Source of the DNA: Actinomycetota bacterium | GTDB lineage: Bacteria; Actinomycetota; Geothermincolia; Fen-727; Anoxymicrobiaceae | NCBI GenBank assembly: GCA_018896525.1 | Contig: JAHIMR010000121.1 | Span: forward strand, 1-61,508 | DNA: 61,508 nt | Direction of reading: 5' to 3' | Part shown: positions 6,929 through 55,476 of the stretch, one piece after another | How positions within the stretch are numbered: the first letter of the stretch is position 1 | How the letters are laid out: each line of letters starts with the position of its first letter | Translations under genes and position numbers: made by a program | The notes under the pieces: model-generated | Databases searched by the model: none | Seen by the model: only the letters and a program-made list of their open reading frames with translations | What the model was told of the DNA's origin: nothing

Positions 6929-6933
6929 TCAAA

Positions 6934-7095
6934 GTGCCCCGCTCCATAGATACGCTGGCATTCGAACGCCGCCGCATCCACACCGGCTGTGTTCCGCTCC
7001 TCAGGCGTACTACAGGAGTACGCCTCAGTCGCGCGCCTTGCCGGAGCGGCGCTTCGACGCTCTCGGTGCTGAACCGTATCTATGGAACGAGGCAC
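6934..7095 (-). repeat. Dispersed ~163-bp palindromic element, copy B (reverse, TCCA subtype)
   Basis: Full-length copy in the opposite orientation to copy A, beginning five bases after the nnr stop. The outer arms are CTCCATAGATAC and GTATCTATGGAAC, the central hairpin is GTACTACAGGAGTAC, and the GGCATTCGAACGCC segment lies near the left end. Confidence 0.9.
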
Positions 7096-7113
7096 TATGG
7101 AAAGGAGTTCAGG

Positions 7114-7566
7114 TTGGAAAATGGAAATAGACCGGGGATAGGGGTGCGCGTAGCGAAGCTGATATGCATGGGGCTGGCTTTGTTCGATATACTCCTGGGC
7201 GGACTCACCGTGCTCAAGCCTCGGTGGATGATGAGGATACTGACACCAGGCGAGGAGCCTGCCGGCGAGGCGCTCCTACGGAGATCGGGGACGACCTGGC
7301 TGTTTTTCGCGCTGGTACAGGCGTGGGCGGCGATGGACAACGAGAACCCCACGGCGCTGCGAGCGGTCTCCGTTTTGCGCCTTCAGGACGTCCCGACGGA
7401 CCTGGTATGGCTCAGGTCCGGCTCAGGCTTCGGGTGGTTCGGTAAATTCTCGCTTATCCTCGCACCCACGTTCAACTTCGCGGTGGGGTGTTTCCTTGCG
7501 CAAGTGGCGCGGCGCATAGAGAAGAAAGAGGGAGCGGGTGAGCAGTACGGCGGCATGGCGCCTTGA
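7114..7566 (+). CDS. Small hypothetical membrane protein
   Basis: A protein of 150 residues from a TTG start at 7114, preceded by AAAGGAG (7101-7107). The reading frame stays open upstream through repeat copy B, but that part is repeat sequence and I exclude it. Three hydrophobic stretches are likely membrane segments: ICMGLALFDILLGGLTVL, TTWLFFALVQAWAAM and FSLILAPTFNFAVGCFLAQVA. The C-terminus is charged. No family is recognised. The pattern is that of a small integral membrane protein of the DoxX-like size class, but I see no motif that would support that name. Confidence 0.6.
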   Translation: MENGNRPGIGVRVAKLICMGLALFDILLGGLTVLKPRWMMRILTPGEEPAGEALLRRSGTTWLFFALVQAWAAMDNENPTALRAVSVLRLQDVPTDLVWLRSGSGFGWFGKFSLILAPTFNFAVGCFLAQVARRIEKKEGAGEQYGGMAP

Positions 7567-12778: not shown

Positions 12779-12782
12779 GTAA

Positions 12783-12944
12783 GTGCCCCGTTCCATAGAT
12801 ACGGTTAAGCACTGAGAGCGTCGAAGCGCCGCTCCGGCAAGGCGCGCGACCGAGTCGTACTCTTGGAGTACGTCGAGGGAGCGGAACGCAGCCGGTGTGG
12901 ATGCAGCGGCGTTCGAATGCCAGCGTATTTATGGTGCGGGGTAC
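12783..12944 (+). repeat. Dispersed ~163-bp palindromic element, copy C (forward, TTCCA subtype)
   Basis: Full copy directly downstream of tsaB (stop at 12778). Left arm GTGCCCCGTTCCATAGATAC, right arm GTATTTATGGTGCGGGGTAC, central hairpin GTACTCTTGGAGTAC. It is inserted inside the tsaB-rimI-tsaD cluster; only 18 bases separate its right end from the rimI start. Confidence 0.9.
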
Positions 12945-12962
12945 TATAGCAGTCTGGAGGCA

Positions 12963-13487: not shown

Positions 13488-14500
13488 TGCTTGTCCTCGG
13501 GATAGAGACGTCCTGCGACGAGAGCGCGGCGGCCATGGTCGAGGATGGGTGCGAGATGCTCTCCAACGTGGTGGCTTCCCAGGTCGATCTTCACCGGAAG
13601 TACGGCGGGGTGGTTCCGGAGATAGCGGCCCGGGCGCACGTGGACCAGATAATACCCGTTCTGGAAGAGGCAGTGGTGGGCGAAGCCCGCCCCGACCTGG
13701 TGGCGGTGACCGTTGGGCCGGGATTGGTGGGTTCGCTCCTGGTGGGTGTTTCCGCGGCGAAAGGTCTCTCGTGGTCGTGGGGGATACCCATGGTTGCGGT
13801 GAACCACGTGGAGGCGCACGCTTACGCCCCGGTCCTGGAAGGGCGGTTACCACAGTACCCGTTTCTGGCGCTGGTGGTCTCCGGGGGGCATACGTTGCTG
13901 GCGGAGGTCGGTGGCCTTGACGAGATGGAGATACTGGGCCAAACGCTGGACGACGCGCTCGGCGAGGCGTACGACAAGGTGGCCAGGCACCTGGGGCTGG
14001 GATATCCGGGAGGCCCGGTCATTGACGAGATCGCACCTGCGGGGGACCCGGCGGCGTGTGCCTTCCCACGTCCGATGATGGGAAGCGGCGATTACAACTT
14101 CAGCTTGAGTGGTTTAAAGACCGCGGTAATACGGTTCATGGAAGACTCGGAAAGGAGGGACGCTGTTCGGCCGGTGGAGGACATTGCCGCCTCGTTTCAG
14201 GCAGCGGCGCTGGAGGTGGTGGTCCGGAAGACGGTCCGGGCGGCCCGAGACTGTGGCCTGACCGATGTCGTGATGGGTGGTGGTGTGGCCTGCAACCGGG
14301 CACTGCGGCTCATGTTGGGGGAGGCGTGTGAGGAGGAAGGCCTGAGGCTTGTATGCCCGTCGCCGTCACTGTGCACTGACAACGCCGCCATGATAGCCGC
14401 GCTGGGATACCTGCGATATCAGGCGGGGCACCGGGCGGGGCTGGACGTTGACGTCTATCCCAACCTGAAGTTGGGGGGAGTGCCCCGGACTGTTGCATAA
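13487..14500 (+). CDS. tsaD: tRNA N6-adenosine threonylcarbamoyltransferase TsaD
   Basis: Catalytic subunit that transfers the threonylcarbamoyl group to A37 of tRNA. The 337-residue protein starts MLVLGIETSCDESAAA, has GGVVPEIAARAHVDQI, the iron-binding His pair H107 and H111 in NHVEAHAYAP, LVVSGGHTLL, DDALGEAYDKVARHLGLGYPGGP and GGVACNRALR. It overlaps the rimI stop by one base. The stop codon runs directly into a GGTGCC-type palindrome (14501-14531). Confidence 0.97.
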   Translation: MLVLGIETSCDESAAAMVEDGCEMLSNVVASQVDLHRKYGGVVPEIAARAHVDQIIPVLEEAVVGEARPDLVAVTVGPGLVGSLLVGVSAAKGLSWSWGIPMVAVNHVEAHAYAPVLEGRLPQYPFLALVVSGGHTLLAEVGGLDEMEILGQTLDDALGEAYDKVARHLGLGYPGGPVIDEIAPAGDPAACAFPRPMMGSGDYNFSLSGLKTAVIRFMEDSERRDAVRPVEDIAASFQAAALEVVVRKTVRAARDCGLTDVVMGGGVACNRALRLMLGEACEEEGLRLVCPSPSLCTDNAAMIAALGYLRYQAGHRAGLDVDVYPNLKLGGVPRTVA

Positions 14501-14531
14501 TGACGCAATGGTGCCTGGCACCAGTGCGTCA
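14501..14531. repeat. GGTGCC(T)GGCACC palindrome, isolated copy
   Basis: A 31-base near-perfect palindrome: 15-base arms TGACGCAATGGTGCC and GGCACCAGTGCGTCA with one mismatch, around a single central T. It begins immediately after the tsaD stop and is followed by TTCTCGCCCC, a flank also found at other copies. It belongs to the second repeat family of the window (25.7, 30.8-31.1 and 32.4-32.7 kb). As RNA it would form a long hairpin, so a 3'-end role for tsaD is possible. Confidence 0.8.
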
Positions 14532-14612
14532 TTCTCGCCCCGATATCTGGTATAGTAGGCGCGGTGGCAATTCGAGAATGCTGGTGACCGGAAGGGGTTC
14601 TCCGGGGAGCAA

Positions 14613-25672: not shown

Positions 25673-25835
25673 GAAGTTGAATAATGACGCAATGGTGCCT
25701 GGCACCAATGCGTCATTATGTGGCTTTTGTCTATTTGTGAGGGAGGGGTCTCGCCGGGGATGGCGGGTCTTGTCTGACGTTGTCGCGCATAGACGTGGTG
25801 CCAGGCACCGTTTGGGTGGCGATTGCGTGTAAGCG
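25673..25835. repeat. GGTGCC/GGCACC repeat block
   Basis: The 324 bases between the zinc-ribbon protein and the first acyl-CoA dehydrogenase hold no gene. They contain a perfect 31-base palindrome (arms TGACGCAATGGTGCC and GGCACCAATGCGTCA; 25684-25714 region) and, further on, GTGGTGCCAGGCACCGTTTGG. Before the second palindrome stands a segment (GGGATGGCGGGTCTTGTC) that recurs at 30.9 kb and 32.6 kb. It is probably debris of an old mobile element. Confidence 0.7.
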
Positions 25836-30766: not shown

Positions 30767-31085
30767 TGGGCTGTTGCATATTGTCTCCCCTGTAGCGCCG
30801 GCAACCTGCCGGCATTGGAACGCGCCTTTCGCGTGGGGAGGGAGGAGTCTCGCCCCTGGGCATATGCATTGTGGGGCGTGGATCTAAGTAAAGACATGAA
30901 CGTCACATGCCCGGGGATGGCGGGTTTTGTCTTGCGTTGTCGTGTATAGACGTGGTGCCAGGCACCTGCGTTGCATTACTGCGAGCGGTTTGTTGACGCA
31001 CTGGTGCCTGTCACCAGTGCGTCATTCTGGGTGGAGGGTTGAACGACAACACCTGTGCCAGGCACCGTTTGGTTGGCGATGGGTC
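30767..31085. repeat. GGTGCC/GGCACC repeat block
   Basis: The 438 bases between the BtrH-like gene and the M28 homologue contain no gene. They hold several pieces of the second repeat family: TGGTGCCAGGCACC at about 30953-30966, a degenerate palindrome with arms TGACGCACTGGTGCC / CACCAGTGCGTCA near 30994-31024, and GTGCCAGGCACCGTTTGG near 31056-31073. There are also GCTGTTGCAT and GGGATGGCGGGTTTTGTC flanks shared with the blocks at 25.7 and 32.5 kb. Confidence 0.7.
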
Positions 31086-31159: not shown

Positions 31160-32212
31160 TTGGACGAAAACGAGGAAAACGGAGCCGAAAGGGAGAAGCC
31201 GCGCCGCGGCAGGACAAAGAGGCTTATTATCCTGTTCTTTATCGTCTTGATAATCGGAGCGGGGGCCGGCGTCGGCTCGAACTTCATATTCGCGAAGCCC
31301 GAGGCCGAGAAGGCGACGGAGGTCGCCAAAGAGGAGAAGGAAGAGGAGAAGGCCGAAGAAAAGGGTGAAGAAGCAGGGGAAGAATCGACCCGGGGAAAGC
31401 CGCTTGTGTCGAGGTTTAACACCTCCCAGGCGATGAGTCACGTGTTTGCCCTGTCCGAGCAGATAGGGGATCGCCCGGCGGGGTCGGTACGGGCGTCCGG
31501 CGCGGCCGATTACATCGTCCGGAAGATGGGAGAGTACGGGTACACTGTGGAGGAACAGCCGTTGACCACCACAGAAGGGTTCGGCTCCCGCAACATAATC
31601 GGGAACAGGCGTGGGACTCGAGATGGCTACACGCTGATAATCGGTGCCCACTTCGACTCACCACCGGGATCAAAGGGGGCGGTGGACGATGCCTCCGGCG
31701 TGGGCGTGGTCCTGGAGCTCGCCAGGTTGTTCGCCGACCAGAGGCTGGAAAGTACCCTCCAGTTTGTTTTCTTCGGTGCGAATATGCCGGGGGACGGGAA
31801 CATCGAGAACCGCCTGGTGGGTTCGCGGCTGTTCGTGGATATGCTGGGCACGATGGACCGGAAAGAGGTAATAGGGATGATTTCGGTCGATTGCGTGGGC
31901 CAGGGGGAGTTGCTTGCCCTGAGGACCCAGGAGACCGGCCTGCAGAGACTCAAGGCGAAGCTGACGACCTTTGCCCGCGAGTCCGGCGTTGAGGCGGTAT
32001 CGCTGAAATCGACCAGTGACAGTGATAATATTCCGTTTGAAGACGTGGGGATCCCAGCGGTATGGATTGAGTGGTGCGACGCCGACGGCTCGCTTGCCAC
32101 CGACAATGAGTACCGGAGCGTTGTGCCTGAGAAGGTGGAAACGGTGGGGGCGCTCATTGAGGATTTCCTGTACGACATTACACCCGACGACCTGGAGGAG
32201 CTAAAGTACTGA
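31160..32212 (+). CDS. Membrane-anchored M28-family peptidase homologue, probably inactive
   Basis: A 350-residue protein from TTG 31160 (AAGAGG seven bases upstream); the open frame before it is repeat sequence. The N-terminus is acidic then basic, followed by one membrane helix (about 22-44, LIILFFIVLIIGAGAGVGSNFIF), a strongly charged Glu/Lys linker and an M28 aminopeptidase-like domain outside the cell. The first metal ligands are present (GAHFDSPPGSKGAVDDASGV). The usual FxGxEExGLxGS, with catalytic Glu and a metal Glu, reads FFGANMPGDGNIENRLVGS. The terminal metal His of the YHxxxDTxE motif is Arg in EYRSVVPEKVE. The next gene begins at its stop codon. Confidence 0.78.
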   Translation: MDENEENGAEREKPRRGRTKRLIILFFIVLIIGAGAGVGSNFIFAKPEAEKATEVAKEEKEEEKAEEKGEEAGEESTRGKPLVSRFNTSQAMSHVFALSEQIGDRPAGSVRASGAADYIVRKMGEYGYTVEEQPLTTTEGFGSRNIIGNRRGTRDGYTLIIGAHFDSPPGSKGAVDDASGVGVVLELARLFADQRLESTLQFVFFGANMPGDGNIENRLVGSRLFVDMLGTMDRKEVIGMISVDCVGQGELLALRTQETGLQRLKAKLTTFARESGVEAVSLKSTSDSDNIPFEDVGIPAVWIEWCDADGSLATDNEYRSVVPEKVETVGALIEDFLYDITPDDLEELKY

Positions 32213-32427
32213 TGGATGGTACCGAGGAGATCACGCGGCCCGGATTCATACAAGGCACCGAGGTTGCTTGCTCGAAGCGGTACGCGCAGCCGGGGTTTGA
32301 CGGTCAGCTCCCCCTGCTGAAGCGCGAGCAGGGACTCAAGAAGAAGCTGATGGTGGCGCTTATCGTGATATCCTCGGTGTTTCTGGGTGGTATGATCGCG
32401 GGGGCGGTCGTGAGGTTGTTTATCTGA
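32212..32427 (+). CDS. Small single-pass membrane protein
   Basis: A 71-residue protein whose ATG overlaps the stop of the M28 homologue (TGATG), so they are translated as a pair. The first ~45 residues are polar (MDGTEEITRPGFIQGTEV...GLKKK), and the C-terminus is one hydrophobic helix (LMVALIVISSVFLGGMIAGAVVRLFI) reaching the last residue. Tail-anchored topology with the N-terminus in the cytoplasm is likely. No family recognised. Confidence 0.6.
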   Translation: MDGTEEITRPGFIQGTEVACSKRYAQPGFDGQLPLLKREQGLKKKLMVALIVISSVFLGGMIAGAVVRLFI

Positions 32428-32460
32428 AGTGCCCAGGGCACGCCCCGGGCATATGTATAA

Positions 32461-32563
32461 TGACAAAATGGTGCCAGGCACCATTTTGTCACCAGGCATC
32501 ATTTTGTCACCAGGCATCATTTTGTCACCAGGCATCATTTTGTCACCAGGCACCATTTTGTCA
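32461..32563. repeat. Perfect palindrome followed by 18-bp tandem array
   Basis: A perfect 31-base palindrome (TGACAAAATGGTGCC-A-GGCACCATTTTGTCA, 32461-32491) runs into four head-to-tail 18-base units, CCAGGCATCATTTTGTCA three times and CCAGGCACCATTTTGTCA once (32492-32563). It lies in the gap between the small membrane protein and the convergent phosphatase gene. Confidence 0.9.
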
Positions 32564-32750
32564 TTCTCGCCCCTGGGCTGTTGCATAACGGACACCGTTT
32601 GGGTGAGTATTCCAACGGCAACAGCCCGGGAATGGCGGGTTTTGTCTCACGTTATCGTGTCTAAGGCAGGGGTCAGGCCCGCTGTTGCATTACGGATATA
32701 GACTTGAGTGAAGAATCGAACGACAACAGCTTGGGCCAGACCCCGTTTGG
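32564..32750. repeat. Remnants of the GGTGCC-type repeat flank
   Basis: Contains the shared segments TTCTCGCCCCTGGGCTGTT, GGGAATGGCGGGTTTTGTC and a diverged palindromic pair, GGGGTCAGGCCC and GGCCAGACCCCGTTTGG. These match flanks at 25.7 and 30.9 kb. No gene is present. Confidence 0.6.
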
Positions 32751-34076
32751 TTAGCGGGTGAGAAAGTCGTTCCTGATATAACCTTCGCGTTCGATGTCTT
32801 CACCTTGTGATCTTACGATTCCCTTGGCCTTCGTCCATGTCTTGCTGTCCGAGCCCATTACCTCGCTAAGCACCGTTACCTCCTGCCCGTCGCGCAGCAG
32901 GCCGACGATGTCACCGCGGGGGTCTGGCGTCGCACGCATCCTGACCCCTTGCCCCTCCACGATGACGGTCTGGGGTGTAGGCGCGGGCGTTTCCTCTTTC
33001 TCCTCACCCTCTTCGCCGGGCTCTTCCTTCTCTTCTTCCTTCCCCGCCGCTTCTTCTTCCTTGTCCGGCTCTTCATCTTCGACGACGGCCTCGTCGGCCC
33101 GGCTCGTCGTTTCCTTCTGTGGCTTCCTGATGGAATCGGTTATCCTCCATCCAAACGCGAACGCCACCGCGAAGATTCCGATGAGCACCAGGACCAGGAG
33201 CGTTACTATTATGGCCTCGGCTGCGCGCTCCTTTCTGGCCCTGCTCCTGAGTTCACGCTGGTCAACATCGGTCGTCTCATCGGGGATCACGTACTGCCAG
33301 GCGTTAATAGAGGCGTTATCAGACGAATCGCGGCTGAACGCGAGCCGGGTAAGCTGGCTTGTGCTCCGCTGGATGTTCATCGCGGAAAGAAGGTTCTCCA
33401 CGATCTCCTCCTCGGAGACGTTATTCCAAAGGCCGTCGGTACAGAGGATCAACGTGTCACCAACTGCTATCTCCACTTCGTTGTAGCCGACGTGGACCTC
33501 GGTGGAGGTGCCAAGGTATTTGGCTTTCTCCCCGGCAGGGGCCTTTTTCGGCTCAGCCGGAGCGTCTTCCCCGGTGGTCACGGGGAACAGCTGGGGTGAC
33601 TCATCGTCGGCTGGAGCCTTGAACGAAAGATCGCCGGTGGGGGTAAGGTCGTAGAGTCGTTCGTCGTGAAAGAGGTAGACACGGGTGTTTCCCGCGTGGC
33701 CGATGTACGCCTTTTGGGCGTCGGCGATGACCACGGTAAGCGATACCTCTTCGCCACCTTCGCCCGCTTCGGCCAGAAGGTTGGCGTTAATGCCGGAGAG
33801 CGCGTCCTTGATAAGGCGCTCCATGTGCGCGCTGTTCAACTCCTCTTCGGCGATGACCGCGGGCTCGATAAGATCGCCTAACAGAGCCAGCGCCTTCTTG
33901 GCCGCGGTTTCGCCGGTTGGGTGCCCCTTTGGGGAGTCCGCCACCGCCATGTAGGAGATAACCGGCATAGGAACGCGCCGGCGCATGTAGTCGTGGACGA
34001 AAGACGCGTCTCGGGGGATCTTGCCTTCGCCGAGGTGCGTGGCGGAACCCACGTTACCGTACTTCGCTTCAGCCAC
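32751..34076 (-). CDS. PP2C-type protein phosphatase with transmembrane helix and extracellular SH3-like domain
   Basis: About 441 residues. The N-terminal PPM domain has AVADSPKGHPTGETAAKKAL (metal Asp kept, although the usual DGMGG is DSPKG), LTVVIADAQKAYIGHAGNTRVYLF, LILCTDGLWNNVSEEEI and SSDNASI with the last metal Asp, so catalysis is still possible. A membrane helix (about 290-312, IIVTLLVLVLIGIFAVAFAFGW) leads to a ~60-residue Glu/Pro-rich linker and a C-terminal SH3-like domain (VIVEGQGVRMRATPDPRGDIVGLLRDGQEVTVL). This is receptor-like topology: phosphatase inside, SH3b outside. GTG 34076 is five bases after AGGAG; GTG 34082 is too close. Confidence 0.82.
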   Translation of the reverse strand: MAEAKYGNVGSATHLGEGKIPRDASFVHDYMRRRVPMPVISYMAVADSPKGHPTGETAAKKALALLGDLIEPAVIAEEELNSAHMERLIKDALSGINANLLAEAGEGGEEVSLTVVIADAQKAYIGHAGNTRVYLFHDERLYDLTPTGDLSFKAPADDESPQLFPVTTGEDAPAEPKKAPAGEKAKYLGTSTEVHVGYNEVEIAVGDTLILCTDGLWNNVSEEEIVENLLSAMNIQRSTSQLTRLAFSRDSSDNASINAWQYVIPDETTDVDQRELRSRARKERAAEAIIVTLLVLVLIGIFAVAFAFGWRITDSIRKPQKETTSRADEAVVEDEEPDKEEEAAGKEEEKEEPGEEGEEKEETPAPTPQTVIVEGQGVRMRATPDPRGDIVGLLRDGQEVTVLSEVMGSDSKTWTKAKGIVRSQGEDIEREGYIRNDFLTR

Positions 34077-34283
34077 GGACACCTCCTGGACGTTTCAGGC
34101 CTGCACCAATCATGAAACCCGGGGCTTGAGAAGCGGTAGCGAACGGATTTCGTGTGCCGCGCGCCCGGGCACCGCCTCACTTAGATACGGCAGTCTATCA
34201 TTCTTCACCCGCTCCTGTAAAACGGCCAACCTGGGTTCGCAAAACAGCACGGGACAGCCGGGAGAGCGACGATTCCAGTTCTA

Positions 34284-34445
34284 GTGCCCCGTTCCATGAA
34301 TACGGTTAAGCACCGAGAGCGTCGAAGCGCCGCTCCGGCAAGGCGCGCGACCCATGCGTACTCCTGTAGTACGCCTGGGGAGCGGAACGCAGCCGGTGTG
34401 GATGCAGCGGCGTTCGAATGCCAGCGTATTTGTGGAGCGGGGTGC
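34284..34445 (+). repeat. Dispersed ~163-bp palindromic element, copy D (forward, TTCCA subtype)
   Basis: Full copy between two minus-strand genes, 13 bases past the stop of the DUF2993 gene. Left arm GTGCCCCGTTCCATGAATAC, right arm GTATTTGTGGAGCGGGGTGC, central hairpin GTACTCCTGTAGTAC. The remaining ~200 bases of this gap, next to the phosphatase start, hold no gene that I can see. Confidence 0.9.
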
Positions 34446-34458
34446 TCATCAGTTGCAC

Positions 34459-38179: not shown

Positions 38180-38265
38180 GTACCGCTCCATGAATACGCT
38201 GGCATTCGAACGCCGCTCCCGTCCACTCCGGCTGCGTTCCGCTCCCAGGGCGTACTACAGGAGAC
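38180..38265 (-). repeat. Dispersed palindromic element, copy E (reverse, truncated)
   Basis: Starts at the base after the aacS stop with GTACCGCTCCATGAATACG and runs through GGCATTCGAACGCC, GCTGCGTTCCGCTCC and half the central hairpin (GTACTACAGGAG), then stops. The other half is missing, so this copy cannot form the outer stem. Confidence 0.8.
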
Positions 38266-46156: not shown

Positions 46157-46534
46157 ATGAAGAAGGTCTTGCTTGTTGATGATGATCGTGATTTCGTTGA
46201 ATCCACCAGGGCGGTTCTCGAAGAGAAATACGAGGTAATTGTAGCCTACGACGGTGATGAGGGAATCGAAAAGGTTAAGTCGGAGAGGCCCGATCTCATA
46301 ATACTCGATGTCATCATGCCCACTGAAGACGGATTTAGTGCTGCCGAGCAGTTGAAGAATGACCCCGAGTTCTCAGATATACCGGTTATAATGCTGACAA
46401 GCTTCGGAACCCGTATGTCGAAGGAAACACAGATCCCACGCAGCAGAGGGTTTGACCTGCAAGCGGAGGACTATATAGAGAAGCCGGTGAAGCCTGATGA
46501 ACTCTTGCGCCACGCGGAAGAGTTGCTCTCATAG
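46157..46534 (+). CDS. Stand-alone receiver-domain response regulator
   Basis: A 125-residue CheY-like protein: LLVDDDRDFVESTRAVLEE, Asp51 in LIILDVIMPTEDG, LTSFGT and EDYIEKPVKPDELLRH. No output domain. It starts 46 bases after the previous regulator (AGGAGGGCG upstream) and is the last gene of the operon. Its TAG stop overlaps the beginning of repeat copy F. Two output-less receivers with one kinase suggest a phosphate sink, a relay or protein-protein control. Confidence 0.93.
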   Translation: MKKVLLVDDDRDFVESTRAVLEEKYEVIVAYDGDEGIEKVKSERPDLIILDVIMPTEDGFSAAEQLKNDPEFSDIPVIMLTSFGTRMSKETQIPRSRGFDLQAEDYIEKPVKPDELLRHAEELLS

Positions 46535-46695
46535 TGCCCCGTCTCACAAATACAATGGCATTCGAACGCCGCTGCATCCGCTCCGGCTGCGTTCCGCTCC
46601 CTCGACGTACTACAGGAGTACGTCTCAGTCACGCGCCTTGCCGGCGCGGCGCATCGACGCTCTCGGTGCGTCACCGTACTTGTGAGACGGGACAC
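46534..46695 (-). repeat. Dispersed ~163-bp palindromic element, copy F (reverse, TCTCA subtype)
   Basis: Full copy that begins inside the stop codon of the second response regulator (TAG-TGCCCCG). Arms CGTCTCACAAATAC and GTACTTGTGAGACGG, central hairpin GTACTACAGGAGTAC. The 80 bases between it and the FeeM-like stop hold nothing recognisable. Confidence 0.9.
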
Positions 46696-46775
46696 TTGAG
46701 CGAAAACCGGCTGGCATATCTCGGCCCCATTTGATCTCCGTTTGCGGGGTGTTCTGGGGTGTAATCCGTAATGGC

Positions 46776-49454: not shown

Positions 49455-49457
49455 TTA

Positions 49458-49619
49458 GTACCCCATTCCATAAATACGCTTGCATTCGAACGTCGATGCA
49501 TCAGCACCTGCCGCGTTCCGCTCCGTCGCGGTACTCACGGAGTACAGCTCGGTCGCGCGCCTTGCATGAGCGGCGCCTCGGCGCTCTCGATACGACACCG
49601 TATTTATGGAACGGGGCAC
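49458..49619 (-). repeat. Dispersed ~163-bp palindromic element, copy G (reverse, TTCCA subtype)
   Basis: Full copy between the convergent DUF35 and MazF genes, ending at the base before the MazF stop codon. Arms TTCCATAAATACG and CGTATTTATGGAA pair perfectly; central hairpin GTACTCACGGAGTAC. Confidence 0.9.
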
Positions 49620-49964
49620 TTAGAAAGGCAACTCAAGTATATTACTAATAATCACCTCGACCCTGCTCATAGTAACTCTACTGACAGTACCCAGTAGTTT
49701 CTTGAGGCGTTCATTGGAAACGCTTTTAACCTGTTCACACATAATGGAACTGTCGTACCTCAACCCGCCTTCGGGTTGCTTGATGGGAACGTGGGAAGTA
49801 AAAGCCCGTACGGCTGTGGTAATGGGAATTACCACCACCAAACCCAAATCGTTGCTGTTGAAGTCGCTGCTGGACAGGACAAGGGCTGGTCTGGTTCCCG
49901 CCTGTTCCCTGCCGACGGTTTTCTCGTCAAAGGAAACGTGCCAAACCTGACCTCTGTTAATCAA
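49620..49964 (-). CDS. mazF: MazF/PemK-family endoribonuclease toxin
   Basis: A 114-residue toxin that cuts mRNA at specific sites. It starts LINRGQVWHVSFDEKTVGREQAGTRPALVLSSSDFN, matching the start of MazF (RGxxWxxxxxPxxGxExxxxRPxLVxS), then VVVIPITTAVRAFTSHVPI and MCEQVKSVSNERLKKLLGTVS. The TTG start shares four bases (TTGA) with the antitoxin stop, so translation is coupled. The open frame further upstream lies inside the antitoxin gene and is not real. Confidence 0.92.
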   Translation of the reverse strand: MINRGQVWHVSFDEKTVGREQAGTRPALVLSSSDFNSNDLGLVVVIPITTAVRAFTSHVPIKQPEGGLRYDSSIMCEQVKSVSNERLKKLLGTVSRVTMSRVEVIISNILELPF

Positions 49965-52468: not shown

Positions 52469-52495
52469 GGCCTTCTCACCCCTTGAAAGCGCCTA

Positions 52496-52658
52496 GTGTC
52501 CCGTCTCACAAATACAATGGCATTCGAACGCCGCTGCATCCGCTCCTGCTGCGTTCCGCTCCCTGCGCCGTACTCAGTGAGTACGGCTCAGTCGCGCGCC
52601 TTGCCGGCGCGGCGCACCGACGCTCTCGGTGCGTCACCGTACTTATGAGACGGAACAC
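52496..52658 (-). repeat. Dispersed ~163-bp palindromic element, copy H (reverse, TCTCA subtype)
   Basis: Full copy whose right end touches the stop codon of the minus-strand acyl-CoA dehydrogenase. Arms CGTCTCACAAATAC and GTACTTATGAGACGG, central hairpin GTACTCAGTGAGTAC. It stands between that gene and the mutase large subunit, so it is within a probable operon. Confidence 0.9.
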
Positions 52659-53803
52659 TACATCTTGCCCAGCAGTCTTCGGGCTACGACTATCCGCTGG
52701 ACCTGGTTGGTTCCCTCGTATATCTGGGTCACCTTGGCGTCGCGCATCATCCGCTCCAGGGGGTGGTCCTTCATGTAGCCGTAACCCCCCAGGACCTGGA
52801 CCGCGTCGGTGGTGACGCTCATGGCCACATCGCTGGCGAAGAGCTTGGACATGGCCGAGAAGATGGACAGCTCGGGGTCGTTGTTGTCGCACAGGGTGGC
52901 AGAGCGGTAGACGAGCTGCCGTGCGGCCTCCACCCTGGTCTTCATGTCGGCAAGCAGGAACTGGATGCCCTGGAGCTTTCCTATCGGGCTGCCGAACTGC
53001 TCTCTCTCCCTGGCCCATTTTACCGCTTCGTCGAGTGCTCCCTGGGCGATCCCCGTGGCCTGGGCCCCCACCAGGGGCCGGGAGCTGTCCAGGGTCTTCA
53101 TAGCGGTAATGAAGCCGGAACCACGATCGCCCATCATGTTCTCCTTGGGCACCAGGCAGTCCTCGAAGTTTACCTCGGAAACCTGGGCGCCCCTGAGGCC
53201 CATCTTGTCCTCGATGTGCCCGCTTGAAACCCCCGGAAAATCACTCTCAACCACGAATGTGCTGATCCCCCTGACCCCCCTGTCGGGGTCGGTCATGGCG
53301 AAGGTGGAAAAGACCCCGGCGATGCTCCCGTTGGTTATGAAGCACTTCTCGCCGTTCATGAGATAGCCGTTATCGGTCTCGGCGGCGATGGTCTTGGTGG
53401 CGGAGGCGTCGGAACCGGCTCCCCGCTCGGTGAGGCAGAACGCGGCGATCGTGTCACCTTTCGCGATCGGGGGAAGGTACTTCCGCTTGGTCTCATCGGA
53501 GCCGGCGATGATTATCGGGTACGCCGCCAGCTTCTGGACCACGAAGATCAGGGACGTGGTGGCACAGGCCCGCGCCAGTTCCTCGGCCACGATGCAGTTG
53601 GAGAGGAGGGAAGCGCCGGACCCGCCGTACTCCTCGGGGATGGCCAGGCCCAGCAAATCGTTCTCGGCCAGCAGTTTCTGCATATCCCAGGGGTACTCGC
53701 CGGTGCGATCGATCTCGGCGGCGCGGGGGGCCACCTTCTCGGCCGCCATCTCTTGTACTTGCGAGCGAAGGGCCTTCTGCTCCTCTGAAAGATCGTACGT
53801 CAT
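52658..53803 (-). CDS. Acyl-CoA dehydrogenase
   Basis: Third acyl-CoA dehydrogenase of the window, 381 residues. Features: MTYDLSEEQKALRSQVQEMAAEKV, AAFCLTERGAGSDASATKTIA, CFITNGSIAGVFSTFAMTDPDRGVRGISTFVVE, WAREREQFGSPIGKLQGIQFLLADMKTRVEAARQLVYRSA, and QVLGGYGYMKDHPLERMMRDAKVTQIYEGTNQVQRIVVARRLLGKM with the catalytic Glu in YEGT. It resembles the copy at 27.2 kb closely. Neighbours are an SDR and mutase genes, consistent with branched- or short-chain acyl-CoA oxidation. Confidence 0.94.
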   Translation of the reverse strand: MTYDLSEEQKALRSQVQEMAAEKVAPRAAEIDRTGEYPWDMQKLLAENDLLGLAIPEEYGGSGASLLSNCIVAEELARACATTSLIFVVQKLAAYPIIIAGSDETKRKYLPPIAKGDTIAAFCLTERGAGSDASATKTIAAETDNGYLMNGEKCFITNGSIAGVFSTFAMTDPDRGVRGISTFVVESDFPGVSSGHIEDKMGLRGAQVSEVNFEDCLVPKENMMGDRGSGFITAMKTLDSSRPLVGAQATGIAQGALDEAVKWAREREQFGSPIGKLQGIQFLLADMKTRVEAARQLVYRSATLCDNNDPELSIFSAMSKLFASDVAMSVTTDAVQVLGGYGYMKDHPLERMMRDAKVTQIYEGTNQVQRIVVARRLLGKM

Positions 53804-55290: not shown

Positions 55291-55298
55291 GGTGTCTA

Positions 55299-55462
55299 GT
55301 GCCCCGTCTTATAAATACAATGGCATTCGAACGCCGCTGCATCCACTCCGGCTGCGTTCCGCTCCCTGCGCCGTACTCAGTGAGTACGCCTCAGTCGCGC
55401 GCCTTGCCGGGAGCGGCGCACCGACGCTCTCGGTGCTTCACCGTACTTATGAGACGGGACAC
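55299..55462 (-). repeat. Dispersed ~163-bp palindromic element, copy I (reverse, TCTCA subtype)
   Basis: Full copy 15 bases after the stop of the minus-strand BKACE gene. Arms CGTCTTATAAATAC and GTACTTATGAGACGG, central hairpin GTACTCAGTGAGTAC as in copy H. It stands next to the hairpin at 55265-55290. Confidence 0.9.
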
Positions 55463-55476
55463 TGGAACCCCCCGCT

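Follow-up and report, generated by a model that had tools for sequence, protein, structure and literature searches.

REP-like palindromes, probably spread by Y1 transposases of the TIRYT type, and half-palindrome arrays in a Geothermincolia genome

Analysis of a 61,508-nucleotide stretch of DNA from an Actinomycetota bacterium (contig JAHIMR010000121.1 of assembly GCA_018896525.1, hereafter the window) identified a perfect palindrome with an adjoining tandem array of its own half, both of which belong to a dispersed intergenic family. The palindrome is best described as a REP-like, non-autonomous hairpin element that probably owes its spread to the Y1 (HUH) transposases of its own genome, acting in trans.

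A perfect palindrome and its tandem array

The original prediction, made from the letters of the window, described a perfect 31-bp palindrome followed by four head-to-tail copies of its right arm with small changes, and three further palindromes whose arms also match. The first palindrome was confirmed as 15 + 1 + 15 nucleotides (TGACAAAATGGTGCC-A-GGCACCATTTTGTCA), and the four copies were found to be 18-nt units (CCAGGCAYCATTTTGTCA, ending at 32563) that include the centre as well as the arm. The features of this region and the sister sites are as follows.

32212–32427, plus strand: small gene with its 3' end toward the repeats, conserved in the relative G003 (home-made gene caller)
32461–32491, no strand: perfect palindrome of 31 nt, REP-like unit, arm variant GACAAAA/TTTTGTC
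32492–32563, plus strand: four 18-nt head-to-tail units, centre CCAGG plus right arm CAYCATTTTGTCA
32565–32750, no strand: repeat mosaic adjoining the array, a 59-nt inverted repeat CCTGGGCTGTTGC...GCAACAGCCCGGG and then GGGGTCAGGCCC...GGGCCAGACCCC
32751–34082, minus strand: convergent gene on the far side of the repeats (limits of the open reading frame)
14499–14533, no strand: sister palindrome, arms GACGCAA/GTGCGTC, one mismatched pair
25681–25719, no strand: sister palindrome, arms GACGCAA/ATGCGTC, one mismatched pair
30994–31024, no strand: sister palindrome of the commonest subfamily, TGACGCACTGGTG-CCTGT-CACCAGTGCGTCA, 13-nt arms and 5-nt centre (GGTGCC-T-GTCACC)
25797–25809, no strand: asymmetric GGTGCCAGGCACC core within a longer repeat at 25754–25809
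30954–30966, no strand: asymmetric GGTGCCAGGCACC core within a longer repeat at 30911–30966

Single-stranded DNA folding of the 32461–32491 palindrome gave −14.6 kcal/mol (z −7.5), a value that none of 200 shuffles equalled. Tandem Repeats Finder reported 5.0 copies in the array, a count that includes the palindrome's own right half, with 97% matches and a score of 166; copies 1 and 5 carry CACC and copies 2–4 carry CATC. At the junction between 18-nt units the foot GTCA is joined to CCAGG, and as the left half has GGTG before the same CCAGG, the limits of the array unit are defined and the junction is without microhomology. The palindrome and the adjoining array are therefore confirmed as real and as exceeding chance. 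The three sister palindromes are present and match less fully than described, with one mismatch each at 14499 and 25681 and the shorter arms and longer centre at 30994. A CRISPR-like reading of the array was ruled out, as its 18-nt units have no unique spacers between them, and scans of the window yielded no Rfam match at gathering score and no tRNA.

Other repeats were observed around these sites. Mosaics of the type at 32565–32750 occurred at 12 places in a 460-kb sample of the genome with no midpoint inside a called gene, and within the window's own mosaic 32672–32743 resembles a miniature inverted-repeat element, having inverted ends (GGGGTCAGGCCCGCTGTTG and CAACAGCTTGGGCCAGACCCC) with the TIRYT motif GGGGTCAG. 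The longer asymmetric repeat (CCGGGGATGGCGGGTTTTGTCT..., ending in GGTGCCAGGCACC or GGGGTCAGGCC) is present in the window at 25754–25809, 30911–30966 and 32626–32681. A second, larger family of about 165–180 nt with GTACT...AGTAC hairpins was found at 42 places in the 460-kb sample, none of whose midpoints lay inside called genes; its copies in the window are at 1154–1318, 6933–7114, 12782–12945, 34283–34446, 38183–38263, 46531–46714, 49457–49638, 52493–52662 and 55296–55466.

A dispersed intergenic family

The core GGTGCCNGGCACC occurred at 129 sites across the window's genome (G000; 2.92 Mb in 140 contigs, 92% complete) while its reversed control occurred at none. A looser core, GGTGNCNGNCACC, gave 119 distinct sites in the examined part of the genome, and pairing of the arms at positions 7–15 was two-peaked among them, with 57 sites pairing at nine of nine positions, 20 at eight, two at seven and 40 at one to six. 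Hence 79 of the 119 sites pair at seven or more of nine arm positions, 22 of these 79 carrying one or two arm mismatches, and the other 40 are not arm-paired. The set contained 13 distinct perfect arm types, the window form among them, and variants such as GACGCAC, GACACGC, GCGCCAA and GACAAAA were seen. The commonest perfect form, TGACGCACTGGTG-ACAGG-CACCAGTGCGTCA, was present 24 times, followed by TGACACGCT.. (10 times) and TGACGCACTGGTGCC.. (8 times); close relatives of the window form, 94–97% identical over 31 nt, lie on C70, C7 and C16. Tandems of whole palindromes with a 34-nt unit also occur in this genome. A covariance model built from 30 palindromes gave at least 147 matches with strands counted apart, a lower bound because 150 of 2,249 candidates were scored.

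Position counts in the 460-kb sample, which rest on a home-made gene caller, placed none of 15 palindromes inside called genes, although genes cover 82% of the sequence. Five of the 15 were in convergent settings, six in tandem and three in divergent ones, and one was at an edge; among 17 other core sites, three were inside called genes.

Paired variation of the arms

The original prediction held that the arms change in pairs, and this was borne out in core sites collected with no selection on the arms. Of the 21 strict cores in the fully read 460-kb sample, 10 paired at seven or more of nine positions, as did 7 of 15 other core-pattern loci (a set sharing one site with the first) and 12 of 24 cores from relatives, against a chance expectation of 0.02–0.03 per set. 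Shuffling of right arms among the 21 strict cores gave a mean of 3.0 and a maximum of 9 in 2000 rounds, compared with the 10 observed. Alignment of 30 palindromes showed 64 cells changed on both sides, in comparison to 26.6 when shuffled and 8–17 when slid, though the rows of this alignment were selected on pairing. In relatives, too, copies with other arms that pair fully were found around the same core (TGCAAAAAT and TTCCAAAAT in G011, GACACATT in G006 and TGCACCACC in G005). Preserved palindromes with complementary mutations are known in canonical REPs (PMC2817692, PMC3116915), so that paired arms as such are not new here.

Such pairing may also come about with no selection, because template switching (quasipalindrome correction), for which a mechanism has been published (PMC8794818), perfects imperfect inverted repeats. 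We consider this somewhat short of an even prospect, and it is compatible with a transposase-spread element. When perfect arm types were compared with the main arm, the differences present on both sides comprised 19 transversions and 11 transitions, which favours template switching; the predominance of transversions indicates that most arm differences did not arise as single steps through G-T wobble. Against it, one or two arm mismatches persist in the 22 imperfect palindromes noted above, and the process accounts for the arms but not for the copy number or the association with Y1 genes. These data fit template switching and selection alike.

Y1 transposase genes and their flanks

Four intact, open Y1_Tnp genes above the Pfam cut-off are present in the window's genome. 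Their proteins are 240–244 aa long with the motifs NHYH and YTALNP or YIALNP, and those of L001, L002 and L003 are 63–70% identical to that of L004. Matches to a C-terminal helix-turn-helix were weak in all four and exceeded the Pfam cut-off in L004 only, the NCBIfam model REP_Tyr_transpos scored 67–70 bits, under its cut-off of 80, and the sole solved relative found was the TnpA-REP structure 4ER8 (E 0.006). The genes and their flanking units are listed below.

L001, on C117: GGTGCCTGTCACC, in 13-nt half arrays
L002, on C97: GGGGCCAGGCCCC, in 34-nt tandems
L003, on C16: TGTACCAGGTACA and TGTACCCGGTACT
L004, on C44: GGTACCTGTCACCAGTGCGTCATTTTGAGCCACT, in 34-nt tandems

A related core lies within 120 nt on both sides of every one of these genes (8 of 8 flanks, with the nearest copies at 17–61 nt), in comparison to a background of 0.039 per 150 nt, the loose core pattern behind this count having been drawn up after the flanks were seen. 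The palindromic core at the ends differs from gene to gene, which gives the impression that the ends diverge along with the protein. Outside the core, the flanking units are less palindromic than the dispersed copies: four of the 14, all of them at C44, pair at seven of nine arm positions and the remaining 10 at zero to six, a finding that counts against spread by these transposases. The four C44 units have CACCAGTGCGTCATT in common with the commonest dispersed form, which suggests the C44 gene as the likeliest partner of the window's palindrome family.

The search for Y1 genes bounded by palindromes, proposed in the original prediction, thus succeeded for related cores and failed for the exact window variant, whose GACAAAA arms flank none of the four genes. 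Neither of the outcomes named as fatal to that prediction, a genome with no Y1 transposase or arms of random sequence, was obtained, given the four Y1_Tnp genes and the paired variation.

Relatives and orthologous sites

Y1 genes with adjoining cores were also found in relatives. That of G011 lies between strict cores whose arms pair at nine and eight of nine positions and differ from the window's, and strict cores adjoin the Y1 genes of G004 and G006 with arms pairing at three to five of nine. Across 15 Y1 loci of relatives, four had a perfect odd palindrome (arms of at least 6, within 200 nt), five had GGGGTCARG ends and six had neither. The number of Y1 genes does not track the number of palindromes across relatives: G002, with 13 Y1_Tnp matches, has 19 strict cores but no match to the palindrome model, and strict cores number 24 in G005 (85% complete), where no Y1 gene was found. 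G001, of the same genus as the window's genome and 82% complete, yielded no complete Y1 gene and 15 strict cores, none of the eight distinct ones examined being perfect; three model matches there are long palindromes with altered cores, e.g. ACGCAAGATGGTACC-A-GGTACCATCTTGCGT.

At the orthologous intergenic site of G003, which belongs to another genus, 54 nt without the core stand in place of the 345 nt of the window between conserved flanking genes. The whole mosaic was therefore gained in the window or lost in G003, a statement on the mosaic as a whole and not on the palindrome alone. For the 14499 site the comparison concerns spacer lengths only, which were 53 nt in G006 versus 145 nt, and 83 nt in G003 versus 158 nt.

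Among 80 wider relatives 73 were examinable, of which 33 had an exact repeat of at least 12 nt common to both gene flanks, in comparison to 26 of 1,095 control placements. All 33 repeat pairs were inverted, and most were GGGGTCAGGTCTTG-like. Hairpins of at least 8 pairs were found upstream of the Y1 gene in 4 of the 73, no excess over the 6.8% of controls. A quick tree with 95 rows placed the four proteins of the window's genome together with one protein of G011 and one of G006 (support 85). This group fell outside a branch of 81 rows, 64 of them with GGGGTCARG-like ends, and the G004 protein stood apart. Automatic flank labelling of the tree rows gave 5 palindromic (PAL), 65 TIR and 25 without label, where TIR denotes that one flank or both show a GGGGTCARG-like motif; it missed L001 and L004, owing to core mismatches near the centre, and these two were identified by visual inspection and with a pattern.

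An alternative is that the host maintains the palindromes as signals in its RNA or DNA, where they would serve as bidirectional terminators, stabilisers of mRNA ends or sites of protein binding, and that their link to Y1 genes is secondary. Their absence from called genes would suit such a role, as would the 5 of 15 in convergent gaps when 33 of 200 gaps are convergent, the strong hairpins, the paired change of the arms and the retention of palindromes in genomes such as G005, where no Y1 gene was found. However, a terminator scan of 32200–32800 gave two sites, both at 32391–32413 and none at the palindrome, and related cores flank all four Y1 genes on both sides while near-alike units are reiterated in tandem. 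Maintenance as a host signal was consequently judged unlikely in comparison to spread by the transposases.

Half-palindrome arrays

Tandems of half palindromes were found at eight places in the examined part of the window's genome, two of them beside one Y1 gene.

Window: 18 nt, 5 copies
C129: 18 nt, 2 copies, arm ATTGGCGCA, limits defined, foot joined to CCAGG
C127: 18 nt, 2 copies, arm GTTGTTGCG, limits open by one base, arms pairing at 3 of 9
C56: 17 nt, 2 copies, tandem phase arbitrary
C16: 20 nt, 2 copies, tandem phase arbitrary
C2: 14 nt, 2 copies, tandem phase arbitrary
C117, both sides of the Y1 gene: 13 nt, 3.2 and 2.2 copies, tandem phase arbitrary

The poor pairing of the C127 array means that a paired stem is not required for every array. 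A similar run adjoins the Y1 gene of G004. Searching 31 genomes of the class for the pattern CCAGGCACC-N9-CCAGGCACC returned two places, C127 and C129, both in the window's genome, and the exact 18-nt form was thus not found in relatives by this pattern; the window array, with CATC in its inner copies, escapes it. One paper on REPINs and RAYTs describes tandems in which the entire REP or REPIN is repeated. In the window and C129 arrays the foot ends in CA, and CA and CT are the cut sites given for studied TnpA-REP enzymes (PMC8266576).

The regular 18-nt spacing might suggest a conventional array of the operator or iteron kind, made up of promoters or of binding sites for a protein, as might four minus-strand matches that resemble promoters (0.5 in shuffles). 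This is very improbable, as the four matches are a single weak motif multiplied by the array, for which reason the promoter reading was ruled out, and as arrays of the same period elsewhere differ in their arms (ATTGGCGCA, GTTGTTGCG), so that what stays constant among arrays is not the sequence of the arm. An assembly artefact, conceivable in a genome of this fragmentation and completeness, is hardly credible given the short unit, the differences between array members (CACC, CATC) and the occurrence of the same design at other loci and in other genomes.

Proposed origin of palindromes and arrays

Under the preferred explanation, spread by the genome's own transposases, the palindromes would move in trans through single-stranded hairpin intermediates, most likely by the action of the C44 enzyme; that this enzyme cuts and moves them is what we infer. 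Recognition would rest on the conserved parts, namely the centre TGGTGNCNGGCACCA and the foot AAT../..ATT, and the approximately six pairs between them would count as a stem that is free to change if both strands change. Paired change could then result from selection on the hairpin or from the use of one arm as template for the other during replication.

The 18-nt array is a tandem duplication of the centre and 3' arm. As the junction of foot and centre is without microhomology, the first duplication probably arose by breakage and joining or by strand transfer at the element, and later slippage would have raised it to five copies. The foot ending in CA matches a cut site of a studied RAYT. The transposase may make the arrays, with hairpin breakage in replication being an equally possible source. 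Recurrent half-palindrome arrays may in either case be a footprint of hairpin events.

A more speculative proposal, which we consider rather unlikely, is that in this Y1 clade of Ca. Geothermincolia (Actinomycetota) the dispersed elements turned from simple inverted repeats into palindromes that are nearly perfect. Only centre and foot would be fixed in them, and the stem could take almost any paired sequence. The enzyme would read structure plus two short anchors, and by cutting at the foot and the centre it would create the half-palindrome arrays. If this doubtful scheme were true, one enzyme could serve many arm variants. The poor arm pairing of most units beside the Y1 genes speaks against it. 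The family suggests a route from plain inverted ends to REPs, and its 20 distinct perfect forms in four genomes provide a natural set on whether a stem is read by sequence or by structure.

Comparison with known systems

REP/BIME/REPIN elements and their RAYT (TnpA-REP) partners of groups 2 and 3 resemble the family in several respects, namely high-copy short extragenic palindromes, Y1 genes flanked by related palindromes, paired stem changes, clusters and tandems. REPs are hairpin-capable palindromes of 20–40 nt, a range that includes the 31 nt of 32461–32491, and both the 129 core sites and the absence of the sampled palindromes from genes agree with their high copy number and extragenic position. 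A further trait of REPs is the REPtron, in which they flank a Y1 gene in their own genome; the related cores do so here and the GACAAAA variant does not. In contrast to REPs, the family is without the GTAG/GTGG tag (no GTRG within 8 nt of a foot in any of the 79), its palindromes are nearly perfect, and its transposases differ in their length of 240–244 aa, C-terminal helix-turn-helix signal and Y..LNP motif. The sites in the window are single palindromes, unlike REPINs, in which two inverted REPs and a spacer form one unit.

CGTC-tagged REPs, presented in one survey with an unpaired tag and no linked transposase (PMC3733652), recall the GTGCGTC of the commonest arm. In the window's genome, however, CGTC lies inside the paired stem and is often replaced (TGTC, GCGC), and YGTC outside the foot, where an unpaired tag at one end would be expected, was found in 4 of 79 palindromes.

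The transposases themselves fit the TIRYT/TIRtron type (TnpAY1 subclass 2.1, Bertels group 1), judging by length and motifs. Proteins of this type have about 238 aa, NH[YF]H, Y..LNP and a C-terminal helix-turn-helix, and the four proteins match in length, NHYH, Y[TI]ALNP and the helix-turn-helix signal. Subclass 2.1, which in the classification of Quentin 2018 comes without REP-like sequences, is probably the TIRYT type of Di Nocera 2013 (PMC6006769), whose ends are often GGGGWSAS and sometimes self-complementary, e.g. in S. maltophilia (PMC3733652). The ends found here, GGTGACAG, GGGGCCAG or TGTACCAG/TGTACCCG, do not contain GGGGWSAS, the first two being one base off it, and dispersed copies of the ends are a further likeness. 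Wider relatives have Y1 ends that are GGGGTCAG-like and mostly non-palindromic, of the GGGGTCAGGTCTTG kind, whereas the dispersed copies in the window's genome are palindromes with variable paired arms. The original reading of REP elements moved by Y1 transposases is thus supported overall, with mobilisation presumed and with enzymes of TIRYT or subclass 2.1 character in place of the canonical GTAG-REP type. In summary, the family is REP-like, tied to a TIRYT-type transposase clade and a variant of known REP elements, and through it a transposase class reported to be without REP-like palindromes becomes connected with them.
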